A stretch of 64,000 bases of DNA. Source: Limnovirga soli. GTDB lineage: Bacteria > Bacteroidota > Bacteroidia > Chitinophagales > Chitinophagaceae. The notes under the pieces are model-generated. The model saw nothing but the letters and a program-made list of their open reading frames with translations. It ran no database searches and was not told the origin of the DNA. This document shows, in pieces, positions 2,985-61,728 of the stretch. The DNA lies in NCBI RefSeq assembly GCF_013106755.1, contig NZ_WHPF01000006.1:62001-126000 (forward strand). Direction: 5' to 3'. The stretch's first letter is position 1. The number at the start of each line of letters is the position of its first letter. The translations under genes were made by a program, and so were the position numbers.

Positions 2985-3014
2985 TTTGTTTTTATTGTTG
3001 TGATCATCAGCAAA

Positions 3015-3073
3015 TCATCAGGCAGCTGCACTTGCCACGCTCGGTTCAGGGTTCCTCTTTCATGGCAGCAAAT
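3015..3073 (-). repeat. Intergenic repeat copy, AACCGAGCGTGGCAAG core
   Basis: The core is at 3031-3046 on the minus strand. The left end TTTGCTGCCATGAAAGAGG lies at the high-coordinate side. It is antisense to the Gfo/Idh gene whose stop it follows. Confidence 0.8.
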
Positions 3074-3143
3074 TTTGGCTGAGGGATAAAAGGCTTATAG
3101 GTTGAATTGGCTTACAGAATATAATCAGCATAGACCATTTTCC

Positions 3144-3195
3144 ATTGCTGCCCCATTGCCCTGAACGCACAAGTGTTCTACGCATTTAAAACACC
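3144..3195 (+). repeat. Degenerate intergenic repeat copy
   Basis: The left end TTGCTGCC and GAACGCACAAGTG are recognisable, but the GCGACGC centre has decayed (TTCTACGC). It points toward the end of the minus-strand DUF1566 gene and forms an inverted pair with the copy at 3015-3073. Confidence 0.55.
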
Positions 3196-3305
3196 TGATT
3201 TTTATGCAGGGCAAATCTTTTAGCCTAACAAAAAAGTTACGAAATAAAAAGGCAATAACCACAGTATAAAATGTAGCGAATAGAATAGCCGGGCAATATG
3301 TAAAA

Positions 3306-3899: not shown

Positions 3900-4007
3900 G
3901 AGGTTTGTTTAAAGATGTTAATGTGCCATCTAAAATAGGTTATTCGCACACGGTATCACACATGATACTCATCATATAAATTATGGCCATTTGTAATTTT
4001 CAAAACC

Positions 4008-4080
4008 TTGCTGCTCATTGCCCCGAATGCACAAGAGTGCGACGCAAGTAAAGCTGCATTGCCTGCTAATGCCGGGCTAA
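4008..4080 (+). repeat. Intergenic repeat copy, ACAAGAGTGCGACGCAAG core
   Basis: The core is at 4031-4048. This is a full-length copy, with left end TTGCTGCTCATTGCC and right end TGCCGGGCTAAAA finishing about 5-10 bp from the ftsK stop. It is antisense to ftsK. Confidence 0.9.
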
Positions 4081-4088
4081 AAAACACA

Positions 4089-6819: not shown

Positions 6820-6900
6820 GGGCGTGCCCCTTACGGGTCGGGCTATACGCTGCAAGTCCTCGCTGCGCTGCGGGCTTTCCGCTGCTATCCCTCACGCAGA
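6820..6900 (+). repeat. GC-rich dispersed repeat, second family
   Basis: This runs from GGGCGTGCCCC through GGGTCGGGCTATACGCTGC to CCCTCACGCAG. It matches 28650-28737 closely apart from an internal insertion in that copy. It is strikingly GC-rich against its AT-rich flanks. I recall similar GGGCGTGCCCC...GGGTCGGGCT repeats in other Bacteroidota genomes, but cannot confirm this here. Confidence 0.85.
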
Positions 6901-10178: not shown

Positions 10179-10282
10179 AAATATTTTTTATAAATATAAT
10201 AGTTATAACCAATCCATGGTAACAAATTTGATGAGCGTTTTTATAAAAAATGCCCGCATTTAATTAAACAAGAGAATTGTTT

Positions 10283-10345
10283 TGCTGAATAATGTACCTG
10301 CAGTACAAGTGAGTGACACAAGGAACGATGCCACCTGCTTTACAG
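10283..10345 (+). repeat. Intergenic repeat copy, ACAAGTGAGTGACACAA core
   Basis: The variant core is at 10305-10321, after a TTTGCTG left end. The same core recurs at 45418-45434. It lies on the 3' side of malQ, antisense to it. Confidence 0.65.
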
Positions 10346-10428
10346 CTAAGTACCACCCATTTGAAAAGCAATAAATTGTTATTATCCTTGCCATAGGAAA
10401 TAAAAAACCGACAGTATTTGAAGCCATT

Positions 10429-15048: not shown

Positions 15049-15086
15049 AACATTACCCCGTAAAGGTTTTAGTCAATTTTTGTTTA

Positions 15087-15157
15087 ACAGGCTGTAGATT
15101 TATATGGCATCGGCTCTTGCCACGCTCGGTTCAGGGTTCCCGCCTTGTGGCAGCAAT
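15087..15157 (-). repeat. Intergenic repeat copy, AACCGAGCGTGGCAAG core
   Basis: The core is at 15116-15131 on the minus strand, with left end ATTGCTGCCACAAGGCGGG. It follows the MFS stop and is antisense to it. It pairs as an inverted repeat with the next copy. Confidence 0.85.
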
Positions 15158-15188
15158 GAAAAATGCTAATGGAAAAACCACCCTATTT

Positions 15189-15262
15189 ATTGCCGAATAT
15201 GGTGCCTGACGTACAAGAGTGCGACGCAAGTAAAGCCCAAACTGTATTTGCAGTCAGGCTAA
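15189..15262 (+). repeat. Intergenic repeat copy, ACAAGAGTGCGACGCAAG core
   Basis: The core is at 15213-15230, and the right end (CAGGCTAATAAAA) finishes about 15 bp from the lpxD stop. It is antisense to lpxD and is the partner of the copy at 15087-15157. Confidence 0.9.
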
Positions 15263-15279
15263 TAAAAATTAAAAGACAT

Positions 15280-20467: not shown

Positions 20468-20538
20468 GGTAGCGTTTTTGTAAATATACATTTTTAAAAA
20501 TTTCTTTAAAAAAATGGGTATTAAAACCATGCCTTTAT

Positions 20539-20609
20539 AGCTGCATAGTATTGATAAAGTACAAGAGTGCGACGCAAGTACAGCTGCTACCTGATTTTTG
20601 CCAGGCTAC
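20539..20609 (+). repeat. Intergenic repeat copy, ACAAGAGTGCGACGCAAG core
   Basis: The core is at 20561-20578; the right end TTGCCAGGCTACAAA stops a few bases from the sulfatase stop. It is antisense to that gene. Confidence 0.9.
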
Positions 20610-20614
20610 AAATA

Positions 20615-24019: not shown

Positions 24020-24032
24020 AATCAATTTTTAT

Positions 24033-24112
24033 TAGCCCAACCGCAGTGCAGGCATTAAGCATTCTTGCGTCGCACACTTGTACTGTGGTAATTCTTTGCA
24101 GCAAAACAGCCG
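24033..24112 (-). repeat. Intergenic repeat copy, ACAAGTGTGCGACGCAAG core
   Basis: The core is at 24064-24081. On the minus strand the left end is GGCTGTTTTGCTGC and the right end GTTGGGCTAATAAAA. It follows the aroQ stop in the sense orientation, an exception to the usual polarity. Confidence 0.85.
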
Positions 24113-25251: not shown

Positions 25252-25330
25252 TTGTTTGCCGCCCAAAGAATCGGAACGATAAACCGAGCGTGGCAAGTAA
25301 AGCTTCATTTTTATGCTGGCCCCTGTAACC
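25252..25330 (+). repeat. Intergenic repeat copy, AACCGAGCGTGGCAAG core
   Basis: The core is at 25282-25297, with left end TTTGCCGCCC and right end CCCCTGTAACCAAAAA, 7 bp from the cdd stop. It is antisense to cdd. Confidence 0.88.
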
Positions 25331-25336
25331 AAAAAC

Positions 25337-28649: not shown

Positions 28650-28737
28650 GGCGTGCCCCTTTGGGTCGGGCTATACGCTGCAAGTCCTCGCTACACTGCG
28701 TTTCGCTGCGGGCTTTCCGCTACTATCCCTCACGCAG
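28650..28737 (+). repeat. GC-rich dispersed repeat, second family
   Basis: This is the second copy of the 6820-6900 element, GGCGTGCCCC to CCTCACGCAG. It carries a small internal insertion (CTACACTGCGTTTCGCTGCG versus CTGCGCTGCG). Confidence 0.85.
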
Positions 28738-28759
28738 ATACCTGATTCATTTCTTAGTA

Positions 28760-29941: not shown

Positions 29942-30109
29942 ATCATCAGCATTTAAATATTCAGTTAATCATTCAAAGATAACAGTTGTTAGCAGAATCA
30001 GAAGCTTGAATGTCTTAGAAATTGACACTATAATTTGGATACCCAATATGGCCGCAACCTTCAATTACACTTTATTACTGTAAAACAATTCCAACAGGCC
30101 CAAATTAAC

Positions 30110-30185
30110 CTGCTGCCACAAGGCCGGAACCCTGAACCGAGCGTGGCAAGAGCGGATGCCATAAGATACCCTGCCTGTAACCAAA
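30110..30185 (+). repeat. Intergenic repeat copy, AACCGAGCGTGGCAAG core
   Basis: The core is at 30135-30150, with left end CTGCTGCCACAAGGCCGG and right end CCTGTAACCAAAAAA. It points at the radC stop and is antisense to it. Confidence 0.9.
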
Positions 30186-30203
30186 AAATATAAAGCACAA
30201 CAA

Positions 30204-31921: not shown

Positions 31922-31954
31922 AAGTTCTTTTTAATTAATAGTTAGGCTGTTGTT

Positions 31955-32030
31955 TAGCCAGGCAGGAGAATAAGTATGTAGCATCCGTTGCGTCGCACTC
32001 TTGTACGGTTAAATACTTTATGCAGCAGAA
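31955..32030 (-). repeat. Intergenic repeat copy, ACAAGAGTGCGACGCAAC core
   Basis: The core is at 31987-32004 with one change at its end. On the minus strand the left end is TTCTGCTGCATAA and the right end TGCCTGGCTAAAC. It follows prs and is antisense to it. Confidence 0.88.
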
Positions 32031-32092
32031 AATATATTGCTAAAGCACTTGGCTGATAGCTACACGCTTTTTTATAAACAAAACAAAAACAA

Positions 32093-32695
32093 ATGAAGAC
32101 AATTACAATCGAAGGACAACTGAGGACCGAAACCGGGAAAAAAGCCACCCGCCAACTTCGCCTTCAGGAAATGGTGCCAGGTGTAATTTACGGCGGCGAA
32201 AATGAAGTTAGCTTTTATGCTTCTGCAAAAGCTTTTAAATCATTGGTATACACTGGTGAATTCCAGATTGCTGAAGTAAGTGTAGATGGCAAAGTGTACA
32301 GAACCATTTTAAAAGACTTGCAATTTGACAAAGTAAGTGATGCGCTAAACCACGTTGATCTTATGGAGTTGGTAGAAGACAAAAAGGTTATTGCTACACT
32401 ACCATTAAAGTTCACCGGCGCATCAGCAGGTGTGAAAGCTGGTGGTAAACTGGTTTTAAAAATGAAAGCTATTAAGGTAAAAACCTTGCCTAAATATCTT
32501 AAAGAAACTATTGAGGTAGATATAACTAATCTTGAATTGAATGGCAACATTCGCGTACAGGATGTTATTGCACCAAATATGGAAGTAATGAACTCTCCAC
32601 GTATTTCTGTTGCGTCTGTTGTAATGACACGTCAGCTAAAACAGGAAGAAGCAGCAGCACCTGCAAAAGGCGCAGCAGCAGCCAAGAAAAAATAG
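32093..32695 (+). CDS. rplY: 50S ribosomal protein L25/general stress protein Ctc
   Basis: A 200-residue long-form L25 (Ctc type). The N-terminal 5S-rRNA-binding beta-barrel begins MKTITIEGQLRTETGKKATR and has VPGVIYGG. The C-terminal beta domain follows (TLPLKFTGASAGVKAGG, LPKYLKETIEVDI), ending in an Ala/Lys-rich tail (AAAPAKGAAAAKKK). The prs-rplY-pth order is conserved in many bacteria. A strong terminator follows. Confidence 0.95.
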   Translation: MKTITIEGQLRTETGKKATRQLRLQEMVPGVIYGGENEVSFYASAKAFKSLVYTGEFQIAEVSVDGKVYRTILKDLQFDKVSDALNHVDLMELVEDKKVIATLPLKFTGASAGVKAGGKLVLKMKAIKVKTLPKYLKETIEVDITNLELNGNIRVQDVIAPNMEVMNSPRISVASVVMTRQLKQEEAAAPAKGAAAAKKK

Positions 32696-32744: not shown

Positions 32745-32785
32745 GAGTTGTTATTTAACTATTTACAAAACTACCAACCTTGTTT

Positions 32786-32857
32786 TTGCTGCACAGCATA
32801 CTGCAGTACAAGTGTGCGACGCAAGTAATGCTGCATTATACATAAATGCCGGGCTAA
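32786..32857 (+). repeat. Intergenic repeat copy, ACAAGTGTGCGACGCAAG core
   Basis: The core is at 32808-32825, with left end TTTTTGCTGC and right end ATGCCGGGCTAAAAG. It lies between the rplY terminator and pth, in sense orientation. Confidence 0.9.
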
Positions 32858-32906
32858 AAGCATTTATTAAAACAAATGGTTTAAAGTTGTTTAATATTTT
32901 TGAAGT

Positions 32907-37404: not shown

Positions 37405-37551
37405 AATTTTTATCCACGAAGTTTGTTAGGTTTTTTGGTGTCTAATTGTTTGCTCTTGCTTGACCGCCAACTCAAATATATACGAAACTAGCAAATAAAT
37501 TCTTCGCCTATTCAATGGTATTAAGTCTACATAACCTACCCAACCATAAAA

Positions 37552-37620
37552 GCTGCATTACTTGTTGCCGTACAAGAGTGCGACGCAAGTAAAGCTGTAT
37601 GTTGGAATATTGCCGGGCTA
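37552..37620 (+). repeat. Intergenic repeat copy, ACAAGAGTGCGACGCAAG core
   Basis: The core is at 37572-37589; the right end TTGCCGGGCTACAAAA lies about 22 bp from the stop of the FGE gene. It is antisense to that gene. Confidence 0.92.
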
Positions 37621-37641
37621 CAAAATTCTATTGCCGTTAGC

Positions 37642-40445: not shown

Positions 40446-40464
40446 TGACTGGCCATTTCCGCAT

Positions 40465-40538
40465 CTGCTGCATTAAAATTCCGGCGTACAAGAGTGCGAC
40501 GCAAGTTCAGTTGCCATATTACTCATTTGCCTGGCCAA
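40465..40538 (+). repeat. Intergenic repeat copy, ACAAGAGTGCGACGCAAG core
   Basis: The core is at 40488-40505, with left end TCTGCTGCATT and a right end TTGCCTGGCCAA. It follows the serine hydrolase in the sense orientation. Confidence 0.88.
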
Positions 40539-40568
40539 TAAATGTATTTACTTTAAAGCCATTTTTTG

Positions 40569-40630
40569 TAACCCGGCTGTTGAATTTTTATTGGGCTTTA
40601 CTTGCGTCGCACTCTTGTGCGGTACCGCTA
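40569..40630 (-). repeat. Intergenic repeat copy, ACAAGAGTGCGACGCAAG core
   Basis: The core is at 40601-40618; the minus-strand right end is CAGCCGGGTTACAAAA. It is the inverted partner of the copy at 40465. Confidence 0.88.
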
Positions 40631-40782
40631 TAGGGAGCTTTTAAACCGCCTAAACAAAATTTATTACTTACTTATTAAACCTTGCAATTTGTGCAAAGTC
40701 AGAAATACGAAAAATAGCAATTTACTATAAAATAGCAGCAGGGTTTTAAAACGGGGTATCATTGCATAATAGCGTGGTACCC

Positions 40783-45228: not shown

Positions 45229-45404
45229 GGCTAATTGCACTATAAAATAAAAGTTGAATAAGGGGTTGTGGAGAAGCTGTGCAGAATTTACTTAAAGCTT
45301 TAATACTTATCCACACTAAAAAAGAGAATAAAACCTTCTTTTACTTGTATATCAATTATTTATAAATTTTAATGCATATTTTTTGTTACAATCTATTGCG
45401 CCTC

Positions 45405-45458
45405 AATTTAGCTGTTGTTGTGTCACTCACTTGTACAATTTATCAATTAGCAGCAAAA
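45405..45458 (-). repeat. Intergenic repeat copy, ACAAGTGAGTGACACAA core
   Basis: The variant core is at 45418-45434, with left end TTTGCTGCTAATTG on the minus strand. It shares its core with the copy at 10305-10321. Confidence 0.65.
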
Positions 45459-45755
45459 TAATTATTGGTATAGATAATGCCTTTTCTATTCGAAGTAGTT
45501 TAACCAGGTAATCTATTCCGCATTGGTATATTTCTGACGCTTTAATTTGCTTACAAATTAAGTTAAATTAATTTTATAATATTGATTTACAGTTATTTAA
45601 ACAATATGATAGATGATTAATTAAATATAAATATTGCCTAATTAGTAATAAATACAGTCTGCCATAATTTGATTTTACAATTTTATTGATGATTGCTATA
45701 TCAGAACAGCCCGAACATCCTAATTTAGTAGTTGTTTGTACCTTATACATATTGA

Positions 45756-46406: not shown

Positions 46407-46509
46407 TTTACAAAATTTATATACTAATTTAAAGAATATAAAATAACCTTTATTGAATTGCAGCAAATAAGGACAGACTTTCATTATCGGTACAAATAGC
46501 ACAGCCCAA

Positions 46510-46575
46510 TAGCATTACCAGCCGTACAAGAGTGCGACGCAAGAAAAGACCAATTTGGCTTCAACTGCCGGGCTA
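46510..46575 (+). repeat. Intergenic repeat copy, ACAAGAGTGCGACGCAAG core
   Basis: The core is at 46526-46543, with right end TGCCGGGCTAACAAAG about 10 bp from the esterase stop. It is antisense to that gene. Confidence 0.9.
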
Positions 46576-46584
46576 ACAAAGTTC

Positions 46585-51627: not shown

Positions 51628-51704
51628 AGGTTTGCAAATTGTTTAGCCGCAGGTGTATGTCTTTATTCGCCATTACCTGTTTTGAAGTAAAAAACGGTAT
51701 TGCC

Positions 51705-51772
51705 GGGGAATGAACCGAACCCCTGCAGTGTGCGACGCAAGTAAAGCCTCCTAAACAACTCATTGCCGGGCC
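51705..51772 (+). repeat. Partly eroded intergenic repeat copy
   Basis: AGTGTGCGACGCAAG is at 51727-51741, after a GAATGAACCGAACCC stretch that resembles the other core type. The right end is CATTGCCGGGCCC, next to the ypdA stop. Confidence 0.75.
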
Positions 51773-51779
51773 CATAACC

Positions 51780-52772: not shown

Positions 52773-52839
52773 GGGCGCAAATTACAACCGAAATGGGGAT
52801 TCGCAGAAAACAGCTTGGCTTTTATGAGCCAAACTTTGG

Positions 52840-52895
52840 ATTAGGCATTTTACATCCTTGCGTCGCACTCTTTTACTGCAACAAAATGGCAGCTA
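52840..52895 (-). repeat. Intergenic repeat copy, AAAAGAGTGCGACGCAAG core
   Basis: The core is at 52857-52874 with a T-run instead of TTGT. It lies between divergent genes, away from any stop codon, another exception to the usual position. Confidence 0.82.
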
Positions 52896-52981
52896 TAAAT
52901 ACAATCAGTAATGGTATAACACTTAATTTTATTGTTTACAATAATTAAGTACAACATAATACCACCATATTTATCCTTACC

Positions 52982-53509: not shown

Positions 53510-53526
53510 GTTTTTACACCAGTATT

Positions 53527-53599
53527 TTGCTGCAATAATAACAGAACGCACAAGAGTGCGACGCAAGTACAGCACGATGTATGCACTATTGCCGGGTTA
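53527..53599 (+). repeat. Intergenic repeat copy, ACAAGAGTGCGACGCAAG core
   Basis: The core is at 53550-53567. The right end GCCGGGTTAA includes the complement of the stop codon of the enolase-superfamily gene, so repeat and gene touch. Confidence 0.92.
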
Positions 53600-54670
53600 A
53601 AAAATATTTTTAACCACTCCTAAACCAGGTGTTGGGTTAATATGCATACAGCCATTTTTAAGTATAAAACCACCTGCAAAAAGTGTTTCGGCAATGTCGA
53701 AACTTCCATCTAAATCAAGATAGCGGGTGTTGGGGCTACTAAATGCCGCATGCAAGGCTGCTGTTATACTTACCAGGCTTTCATCATTACAACCCCAGAA
53801 CAAATGAATACCGGCTTGTTGCGCTGTTGCTGCAATGGCTTTTGCCGCCAATATGCCGCCACATTTCATTAATTTAATGTTATACACTCCATAAGGCTGT
53901 GGCGATTGTGCCAGCTGAATGGCAGATGCCTGATTAATCAGCGATTCATCCGCCACCAATTTGTTCCTTACTGCTAATGGTAACATCGCTAACTGGTGGT
54001 CGTTACTAACAGGCATGGGTTGCTCAATTAATTCAATGGGCAAATGGCTGGTGGCTTTTACAAATTGCTGCAACTGGCTTATTGTATAACCCTGATTTGC
54101 GTCTACACGTAAAACAACCGCCCCATGTAATGCCTCGGCTATTTTGCTTACCCTTTCAATATCTGCTTCAACTGAAATACCGGTTTTTAATTTTAGTATG
54201 GTAAAACCCGCTGCCACACAGGCTTTAGCCTCTTCCAACATTTCGGCTGTTTCTTTTATTCCAATAGTAACCGAGGTGGGTATCGACTTGTGCAATTGCC
54301 CGTAAAGTTGCACCACAGGTATATTGCTATACTGGGCAAAAGCATCGTGCAATGCTATATCAATTGCCGCCAGCGTTCCAGGCAACTGTGAAAAATAGCT
54401 GGCAGCATTTTGAATCAATTGATGATAGGCCTCAATATTTTGGCCAATCAGTGTTTGTACATAATCAGATTGCAGGTGTTGCAAGGTATCGGCAGGTGTT
54501 TCGCCAACCACATCTTCAAAAGGATTGGCCGCACCATACCCAACCATGCCATTTGCCAGTGTAATTTCTAAAAATACAATCCCCGTATCAGTAAATGTTT
54601 TATAGGCAATAGTGTATGGCTTTATTAAAGGCAATTGCAGCAAATAAGCTTGTACGGCTGTAATTTTCAT
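53597..54670 (-). CDS. dgcA: Enolase-superfamily epimerase/racemase, DgcA-like
   Basis: A 357-residue muconate-lactonizing/mandelate-racemase protein. The catalytic lysines are in ILKLKTGIS (K-x-K) at about residue 160 and NIKLMKCGG at about 260. Metal ligands are in LRVDANQGY, ELIEQP and VADESL. The alignment suggests a dipeptide epimerase, but its partner is a DUF1611 gene 6 bp away. In the D-glutamate route of other bacteria the pair DgcN-DgcA acetylates and racemises D-glutamate. The name is by neighbourhood and family, not by direct proof. Confidence 0.75.
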   Translation of the reverse strand: MKITAVQAYLLQLPLIKPYTIAYKTFTDTGIVFLEITLANGMVGYGAANPFEDVVGETPADTLQHLQSDYVQTLIGQNIEAYHQLIQNAASYFSQLPGTLAAIDIALHDAFAQYSNIPVVQLYGQLHKSIPTSVTIGIKETAEMLEEAKACVAAGFTILKLKTGISVEADIERVSKIAEALHGAVVLRVDANQGYTISQLQQFVKATSHLPIELIEQPMPVSNDHQLAMLPLAVRNKLVADESLINQASAIQLAQSPQPYGVYNIKLMKCGGILAAKAIAATAQQAGIHLFWGCNDESLVSITAALHAAFSSPNTRYLDLDGSFDIAETLFAGGFILKNGCMHINPTPGLGVVKNIF

Positions 54671-55735: not shown

Positions 55736-55747
55736 GATAAAGGTTTT

Positions 55748-55808
55748 TAGCCGGGCATGAAGATACGATTTGCAGCTTTACTTGCGTCGCACTCTTGTAC
55801 GGCAGAAT
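55748..55808 (-). repeat. Intergenic repeat copy, ACAAGAGTGCGACGCAAG core
   Basis: The core is at 55781-55798; the minus-strand right end is CATGCCCGGCTAAAAA. It lies upstream of dgcN and forms an inverted pair with the next copy. Confidence 0.9.
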
Positions 55809-55859
55809 TACTATTGGCAGTTGATTAAACACTATTTGCAAACGTATAAAAGCTCATTC

Positions 55860-55920
55860 ATTGCCATCAGCACAAGTGTGCGACGCAAGGGAAGATGCTA
55901 TAAATATATTGCCGGGCTCA
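55860..55920 (+). repeat. Intergenic repeat copy, ACAAGTGTGCGACGCAAG core
   Basis: The core is at 55872-55889, with right end ATTGCCGGGCTCAAAA. It lies 70 bp from the stop of the gliding-motility-type gene and is antisense to it. Confidence 0.9.
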
Positions 55921-55989
55921 AAAAAAAGATAATTGAATTACCGGAAAGCATGCTTCAAATAACCTGTACTATCCACTTCATAGTCGTCT

Positions 55990-58329: not shown

Positions 58330-58426
58330 AGAACCTGAAAATTATCAACTTTACACGAATAACCATTGCTTTGCCGATACTTTAATGCTGCCATAGCTAT
58401 TTTTAACAATAAAAGCCAGTATTTAC

Positions 58427-58501
58427 CCGGCACCTGAACAACCATTTTACTTTACTTGCGTCGCACTCTTGTACGTTTGGATTAATGGCCAGCAAACAGC
58501 C
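58427..58501 (-). repeat. Intergenic repeat copy, ACAAGAGTGCGACGCAAG core
   Basis: The core is at 58455-58472, with left end GGCTGTTTGCTGGCC on the minus strand. It lies upstream of two divergent genes, not at a stop codon. Confidence 0.9.
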
Positions 58502-58549
58502 AATCGCATAAAAAGTGTTTCTGCTAATGAGCATTCAACCTGCATTTTC

Positions 58550-58612
58550 CTGCAGATGCCATGAAAGAAGAACCCTGAACCGAGCGTGGCAAGTAAAGCT
58601 GCTGTATAATCT
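58550..58612 (+). repeat. Intergenic repeat copy, AACCGAGCGTGGCAAG core
   Basis: The core is at 58578-58593, preceded by GATGCCATGAAAGAAG. The same left part (GATGCCATGAAAGAAGAAC) occurs in the copy at 61650. Confidence 0.9.
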
Positions 58613-58972
58613 TTAGCCGATTTAATAAAAATTCTTTTACCCATTTTCTATACTTTATACAAATGCAAAAACAGATAAGTACCTGACAACGCCTTTAATG
58701 AATAAAACACCCCTTTTCTTGCAAAATCCATGGTTGCTGGTTTGTTAAAGTTTTGTTTTAGTTCCCCTAAGCGCTCCCATATTTTACCTGAACCCTAAAC
58801 CAAAAAAGTGCCTTTTTGAACATTTTTACCACTCGTACCAAGTATAATAACACTTAAAAAAATTAACAAAAAAATGGTACATATATAAACAATTTGTCAT
58901 CTACGAAAATATTAGTAGATAAGTGTAACATTTGCACAATTACATCGTTAGATACCAAATATTTTATATATC

Positions 58973-61465: not shown

Positions 61466-61503
61466 TATATAAATAATACACCATCTACTTTTTATTTGCC
61501 CGG

Positions 61504-61527
61504 CCCCGCTGAAACAGCGGGGTTTTT
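61504..61527 (+). terminator. Rho-independent terminator of the DUF5916 gene
   Basis: CCCCGCTG and CAGCGGGG form a perfect 8 bp stem with an AAA loop and a five-T tail, 40 bp after the stop. Confidence 0.93.
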
Positions 61528-61532
61528 CATGT

Positions 61533-61587
61533 CGTCCTGCTTGCGTCGCACACTTGTACTTTCTGATTAAAGGGCAGCAAAACAGCC
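61533..61587 (-). repeat. Intergenic repeat copy, ACAAGTGTGCGACGCAAG core
   Basis: The core is at 61540-61557, with left end GGCTGTTTTGCTGCCC on the minus strand. It follows the DUF5916 terminator and is antisense to that gene. Confidence 0.92.
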
Positions 61588-61649
61588 ATTAACCAATGCA
61601 GCCAAAAACAATTTCAACATACCTCAAATTACAATCGTATTTCCGCATA

Positions 61650-61722
61650 AGATGCCATGAAAGAAGAACCATGAACCGAGCGTGGCAAATAAAGCCGCTC
61701 GTTGAACAAACGCCGGTAACAT
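61650..61722 (+). repeat. Intergenic repeat copy, AACCGAGCGTGGCAAA core
   Basis: The core is at 61675-61690, with right end GCCGGTAACATAAAA about 7 bp from the GH3 stop. It is antisense to GH3 and the inverted partner of the copy at 61533. Confidence 0.88.
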
Positions 61723-61728
61723 AAAAAA

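Follow-up and report, generated by a model that had tools for sequence, protein, structure and literature searches.

Intergenic repeats with a conserved 18-bp core and nearly independent halves are strongly associated with gene ends in Limnovirga soli

The window (64,000 nucleotides of Limnovirga soli, assembly GCF_013106755.1, contig NZ_WHPF01000006.1, positions 62,001 to 126,000) shows an inverted pair of short repeats in a convergent gap. The left one is a B-type element on the minus strand (15080-15161, core 15116-15133, profile HMM E 6e-23) and the right one is an A-type element on the plus strand (15185-15266, core 15213-15230, HMM E 1.6e-16). An earlier note on this DNA had named 15 such copies, all of which are real and belong to a single repeat family, whose cores fall into two main types, A (ACAAGWGTGCGACGCAAS) and B (TGAACCGAGCGTGGCAAG). 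The element has about 85 bp: a left half that begins near GCTGC, an 18-bp core, and a right half that extends to near GCCGGGCTAAAAA. With three mismatches or fewer, the A core GTACAAGAGTGCGACGCAAG has 16 matches in the window and the B core GAACCCTGAACCGAGCGTGGCAAG has six, and neither has any in shuffled sequence. The family was further analyzed in the genome that contains the window (G000, 5.48 Mb in 77 contigs) and in two congeners (G001 and G002).

Additional B-type elements, supported by both core match and HMM, are found at 2995-3076 (minus, after gene 1902-2984), 25252-25333 (plus, convergent gap, copy 25282), 30105-30186 (plus), 58548-58629 (plus, divergent gap, copy 58576), and 61644-61725 (plus, convergent gap, copy 61675). 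A-type elements with the same support lie on the plus strand at 4003-4084, 20533-20614, 32780-32861 (copy 32808, sense, overlapping a doubtful 60-codon ORF), 37544-37625, 40460-40541 (copy 40488), and 55844-55925, and on the minus strand at 24028-24109 (copy 24064), 40565-40646 (copy 40601, partner of 40460-40541), 52821-52902 (copy 52857, divergent gap), 55745-55826 (copy 55781, sense, paired with 55844-55925), and 58419-58500 (copy 58455, divergent gap, paired with 58548-58629). Four other A-type elements were located by A core match: 31951-32032 (minus), whose counterparts at the orthologous G001 and G002 gaps point the other way; 46498-46579 (plus, convergent gap), where the orthologous gene end of G002 has a B core at equal distance; 53522-53603 (plus, convergent gap), which overlaps the stop of gene 53597-54670; and 61488-61585 (minus, convergent gap), with an ordinary hairpin-plus-T terminator, CCCCGCTGAAACAGCGGGGTTTTT, within its right half (61488-61540). 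At the G001 ortholog of this last site, the hairpin sits between gene and element instead. The A-type element at 10277-10358 (plus, HMM E 8.8e-5) has the core variant ACAAGTGAGTGACACAAG, and that at 51696-51777 (plus, relaxed core match and HMM) has a divergent core start. Two A-like copies show five core mismatches, one degenerate and missed by the HMM at E 0.05 (3141-3222, plus) and one weak (45381-45462, minus). Furthermore, the window contains a second, unrelated repeat, GTCGGGCTATACGCTGCAAGTCCTCGC..., at 6828-6900 and 28656-28738. Its two copies are 89-93% alike, and its exact 27-mer occurs three times in G000 and is absent from G001, G002 and genome G006.

According to the earlier note, the copies show a strong polarity, following stop codons and pointing back at the gene. 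In all 15 named copies the 3' end does lie toward a stop, with 29-100 nt from core end to stop. Eight of them (3031, 15116, 15213, 25282, 46526, 53550, 61540, and 61675) are uninformative, because in convergent gaps either orientation faces a stop, which leaves seven of 15 as informative. The copies beyond the 15 named include two in sense orientation, 24064 (a counter-example to the polarity) and 55781, both on the minus strand; three in divergent gaps (52857, 58455, and 58576); and the convergent pair 40488(+)/40601(-), a second counter-example in which the pair has the opposite arrangement. Copy 32808(+) is also sense, provided that the small overlapping ORF is spurious. Codirectional gaps of the window hold eight antisense and two sense copies (p=0.11), or 8:3 with 32808 counted (p=0.23).

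Exact copies of the A core ACAAGWGTGCGACGCAAG number 1143 in G000, 561 forward and 582 reverse, and those of the B core GAACCGAGCGTGGCAAG number 192. A profile HMM found 354 elements in 864 kb of this genome, a non-random sample of 16%, and 326 of them lie in gaps between two called genes. Called genes, which take up about 87% of the DNA, contain only 19; these 19 and nine more at stretch edges are dropped from the placement counts. At 90 bp each, the elements make up about 27% of the intergenic DNA of the sample, in which the stretches of contig C1 were picked around listed hits and hit-poor parts were left out, so that density is raised there. The stretches of contig C12 are contiguous and are reported apart from the total: their 380 kb hold 150 intergenic elements, a density that extrapolates to about two thousand elements per genome. 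Elements of the congeners were detected with a mismatch search, and gene calls in all censuses were our own hexamer-scored ORF calls. The core is highly conserved, with a majority base of at least 0.87 at 17 of the 18 positions and of 0.57 at the sixth in G000, and of 0.83, 0.71, 0.54, and 0.56 at positions 1, 2, 6, and 18 in G002. Core positions carry 1.6-1.7 bits of information on average, vs 0.33-0.48 for those of the left half and of the proximal part of the right half. The right half was also considered as a separate gene-end motif and rejected as such: 114 intergenic matches occur with a core and six without, and 28 more core-less matches lie in called genes.

The polarity seen in the window is weak in the larger sample, where the orientation test proposed in the earlier note gave a small antisense excess. 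Codirectional gaps in the 864 kb hold 107 antisense and 80 sense copies (p=0.057), and those with a single copy hold 70 and 43 (p=0.014). The same census gave 95:76 (p=0.17) with a mismatch search in place of the HMM, and the contiguous C12 stretch alone gave 49:38 (p=0.28). Among the congeners, the antisense to sense ratio was 52:54 in G002 and 55:38 in G001; the three genomes pooled give 214:172 (p=0.037), and 137:98 (p=0.013) in single-copy gaps. Over these three genomes, the orientation bias toward stops is mild at most, and a strict stop-codon polarity is unsupported, while the association with gene ends is strongly supported. A replication-strand rule was rejected, as orientation did not track GC skew when 41 stretches were compared (Spearman -0.03, p=0.86). 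One further genome, G036, shows 12 forward cores and one reverse where counts elsewhere are balanced, which may only reflect contig orientation.

A stronger regularity than the antisense bias is that the 3' end of the element faces the nearer gene edge, whether stop or start. This holds in 169 of the 235 single-copy codirectional gaps (78/113, 55/71, and 36/51 in the three genomes). Single copies of G000 that are nearer to a stop comprise 58 antisense and 23 sense, and those nearer to a start comprise 20 sense and 12 antisense. The distance from core end to stop peaks at 35-45 nt in G000, about the length of the right half, and the right end frequently lies no more than about 10 nt from it.

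Occupancy depends on the type of gap. Among gaps of at least 100 bp in the 864 kb of G000, elements occupy 67 of 74 convergent, 143 of 217 codirectional, and 36 of 84 divergent gaps (29/31, 66/100, and 18/39 in C12 alone). The corresponding counts are 20/24, 70/94, and 14/28 in G001 and 25/37, 87/135, and 19/34 in G002, which shows a weaker gradient. Convergent gaps had been proposed to carry one copy per gene, which is true of a minority: 48 of the 70 occupied convergent gaps of G000 hold one copy, 21 hold two (19 as <- -> and two as -> <-), and one holds three. Of the 121 two-copy gaps in the three genomes, 114 hold an inverted pair whose left halves face each other (63, 20, and 31 in G000, G002, and G001, respectively) and seven hold the opposite arrangement (4, 3, and 0); none contains a tandem pair. 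Four three-copy gaps show the pattern --+. The RNA fold of one dimer, of about 230 nt, was -94 kcal/mol. The idea that single copies are decayed dimers was rejected, with only seven of 123 left flanks scoring above 2 bits for an inverted partner.

When A copies from different loci are compared, the left 28 nt match by 75% or more in 41, 107, and 113 pairs in G000, G002, and G001, respectively. In all three genomes the right halves of these pairs are near background, with similarity falling at the end of the core, and pairs with similar right halves show no more than near-background similarity on the left. A match of 75% or more in both halves is seen in 2, 3, and 1 pairs of the same genomes, vs 0.11, 1.56, and 1.80 expected if the halves were independent, and one of 70% or more in 2, 11, and 5 pairs vs 0.74, 4.4, and 5.7. 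The halves are thus nearly but not fully independent, G000 and G002 showing small excesses and G001 none. When left-similar pairs were aligned with gaps, right-half identity was 0.60 in G002 (n=34) and 0.61 in G001 (n=16), vs 0.54 and 0.53. Six dimer pairs of G001 with centers at least 75% (up to 89%) alike have outer halves of 0.62 identity vs a background of 0.58, values that are distorted by free end gaps, and the samples of G000 and G002 had two and no such pairs. As the column-shuffled null for similar halves is too liberal, a register-matched null was used as a stricter check: the excess of similar halves persists at most thresholds, and G000 left halves at 0.80 and right halves at 0.85 only equal the maximum of this null. 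We read the halves as modules that were probably copied or recombined at the shared core. Part of their near-independence could also arise from differing constraint on left and right halves; the dimer centers, which are species-specific, argue for copying rather than differing constraint. In addition, hairpin-rich, species-specific sequence adjoins the left half of many elements in the congener loci L191-L230 (GGTCGACAGTCGACGGTC in G002 and CTTGCAGCGTGCAGCC in G001), and further left-side sequences of these loci, such as CCTCGCAATGACG, have what we take to be a resemblance to CGTC-type REPs.

The core itself has a short dyad. Its positions 10 and 14 change together (C-G in 433 copies, T-A in 88, and others in four), and position 8 varies with them, so that two lineages, rather than repeated compensation, may be involved. 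The dyad has only 3 bp, and the monomer lacks the palindrome or stem-loop of REPs. TGCCA/TGGCA pairing in type B is invariant and thus gives no covariation test. Two cores of G001 (L213 near 5274, minus, and L217 near 11969) hold a 16-nt palindrome, TCCCGAAGCTTCGGGA, which replaces three loop bases at the apex of the dyad. The dyad could act as a hairpin or as a symmetric protein site. Furthermore, many B copies of G002 (L191-L210) contain an inverted repeat, TGCCACGCT ... AGCGTGGCA, that extends over left half and core, so these elements could fold as a hairpin.

A wider core pattern was found in 30 of 99 sampled genomes: 30 of the 60 that belong to the same family and none of the 39 that belong to other families of the order. 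It counts 1499, 2087, and 1613 cores in the three congeneric genomes and 0 to 341 in genomes of other genera. Public contigs match in at least 71 stretches; the titles among the matches listed include Foetidibacter luteolus, Segetibacter and unclassified Chitinophagaceae, as well as one MAG titled Sphingobacteriia. Literature searches with the core sequences, and with Chitinophagaceae and repetitive extragenic palindromic as terms, listed no paper that names the repeat in its title or the opening of its abstract, among sources that mostly leave out subscription journals.

In the available text of PMC3733652, REPs and BIMEs are described as hundreds to thousands of short intergenic copies that frequently form inverted dimers, have a patchy distribution and prefer convergent and unidirectional gaps, and the CGTC type has no dedicated transposase. 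The elements of Limnovirga share with this description the high copy number, short length and intergenic position, the inverted dimers, the gap preference and the patchiness; they differ from it in a monomer of about 85 bp that is not a simple palindrome and in halves that are inherited nearly independently. The GTAG or CGTC end tag of the REP superfamilies (PMC3733652, as far as its text was available) was not identified by eye on the listed copies; by the same inspection, CGTC is present within the A core in reverse complement and does not form a tag at an end. As far as PMC3049150 describes them in its available text, the pneumococcal BOX, RUP, and SPRITE are also small interspersed repeats over-represented between convergent genes. 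By that description, BOX is likewise a composite of modules; however, it has a variable number of tandem boxB between fixed ends, whereas here two different halves join at one core.

The number, placement, pairing and core conservation of the elements, together with the near-independence of their halves, point to a REP/BIME-like family of interspersed mosaic DNA repeats that would be tolerated beyond stops, and to a polarity that would be mostly a by-product, a reading to which we give an even chance. Single copies and inverted dimers with left halves facing fill most of the larger gaps between genes, and the elements may persist mainly past stops, with promoters and coding sequence tolerating them less. 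The right half would abut a gene edge, while the left side would gain or swap partners, dimer centers and other repeats. Since the right end lies at the nearer gene edge, which is most often a stop, polarity would follow from the geometry of the element. Left halves with the core, or core-center-core hairpins, may be copied into existing elements or recombine with them at the core that all share, because the halves have separate ancestry. That the core acts as a recombination joint, at which the approximately two thousand elements of a genome were assembled combinatorially, with inverted-core cassettes swapped between gaps by an enzyme, seems rather improbable to us.

If the elements are mobile, the mobilizing enzyme might be sought among the RAYT-like (Y1_Tnp) enzymes of these genomes, acting on them as on REP-type elements; we regard this as unlikely. 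G000, G001, and G002 contain 1, 3, and 3 Y1_Tnp matches, one of those in G002 being weak and frame-broken. At each of the five loci examined in the genus (six genes: one locus in G000, three in G001, and a two-gene locus in G002), a minus element stands to the left and a plus element to the right, 301-2001 nt away, and at three of the loci both elements are within about 1 kb. The presence of Y1_Tnp genes in the genus and this location would be in keeping with REP-associated tyrosine transposase systems (PMC2817692, PMC3733652). However, of 273 control genes with lengths of 300-800 nt, 33 are flanked on either side by elements within 1 kb, 23 of these 33 in the same arrangement, so that the link between Y1_Tnp and element is suggestive only. 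In contrast to those systems, three of the five loci have other hairpin repeats nearer to the Y1_Tnp gene than the elements are, and the number of elements does not track Y1_Tnp presence across the bacterial family sampled. The only Y1_Tnp gene found in G000 (contig C76; L011 1396-1857, L238 2567-2911) is bordered on each side by a hairpin repeat of its own, CTCCGTAGGAGC, and stands between a minus A element at 899 nt and a plus A element at 301 nt. Three Y1_Tnp loci of two other genera have no element nearby: genome G006, with 128 cores, shows none in the 2-3 kb read around both of its genes, and G027, with 341 cores, shows none in 2.8 kb around its gene, at a contig end. In G026, which carries 162 cores, no Y1_Tnp match was obtained at E 0.001. 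Most simply, RAYT units would have come to rest in the gaps that also tolerate the elements.

The earlier note had also offered a role at 3' ends, in RNA stability, read-through or antisense start; widened here to termination, this idea would make the antisense copies functional signals. The strong preference for gene ends, the right ends often lying about 10 nt or less from the stop and the mild pooled antisense excess are in its favor, and so is conservation between species. An element lies within 260 nt of the ortholog's 3' end in 32 of 34 cases if the window gene has one and in 13 of 29 if it does not (p=1.6e-5, the two species not being independent), and orientation agrees at 24 of the 32 ends. 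Such conserved presence would also be shown by a functional element, and it counts against the REP/BIME-like reading. At the end of gene 46585 the core types are A, A, and B across the three species at the same distance and orientation. The end of gene 53597 in G002, first scored as empty, carries a decayed copy; this was the sole supposedly empty site, and neither an insertion event nor a target duplication was caught at the sites compared. Identity over 13 orthologous sites is 0.525 for right halves, marginally higher than the background of 0.491 (p=0.054), and 0.409 for left halves, the same as their background (0.409).

Against a role at 3' ends stand the balanced orientation in G002 and the flips of the element between species in the same gap. 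Termination, in particular, gains no support from hairpin-plus-T terminators, which occur at similar rates with and without an element: in 22 of 146 codirectional gene ends having one vs 19 of 111 lacking one, and in 37 of 140 convergent ends vs 4 of 20. A reverse-direction control in codirectional gaps gave 12/146 and 12/111, so the scan is only modestly above background. After gene 32093-32695, one hairpin terminator is common to the three species and the element beyond it differs in orientation. The elements do not replace hairpin terminators, and a terminator role is not supported. The related proposal that the copies insert by a rule based on terminator DNA finds no general support either, since many elements begin 0-10 nt after the stop, which leaves no room for a hairpin. 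No Rfam model matches the window at gathering score, and covariation supports no conserved RNA helix over the monomer on either strand of 47 B and 201 A copies, an alignment limited to A copies with at most one core mismatch, so that the coupled core variant lay outside it. No RNA role is needed to account for the elements, and we consider a 3'-end signal distinctly unlikely.

DNA uptake sequences are likewise numerous, with a conserved core and inverted pairs near gene ends, and uptake words are common in coding DNA. Sites for uptake or for nucleoid proteins, with the core under selection, would agree with the dyad-bearing conserved core, the high number and the inverted pairs, but elements of about 85 bp almost confined to gaps between genes are unlike uptake sequences and their near-absence from genes argues against uptake, so that we hold this very unlikely, although a protein site without uptake may lie at the core.

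For the REP/BIME-like family that we favor, the fact that the two halves are nearly independent offers a way to test how REP-like mosaics arise and whether this requires a RAYT. Gene ends, terminators, and antisense transcripts in this group must be read with these repeats in mind.
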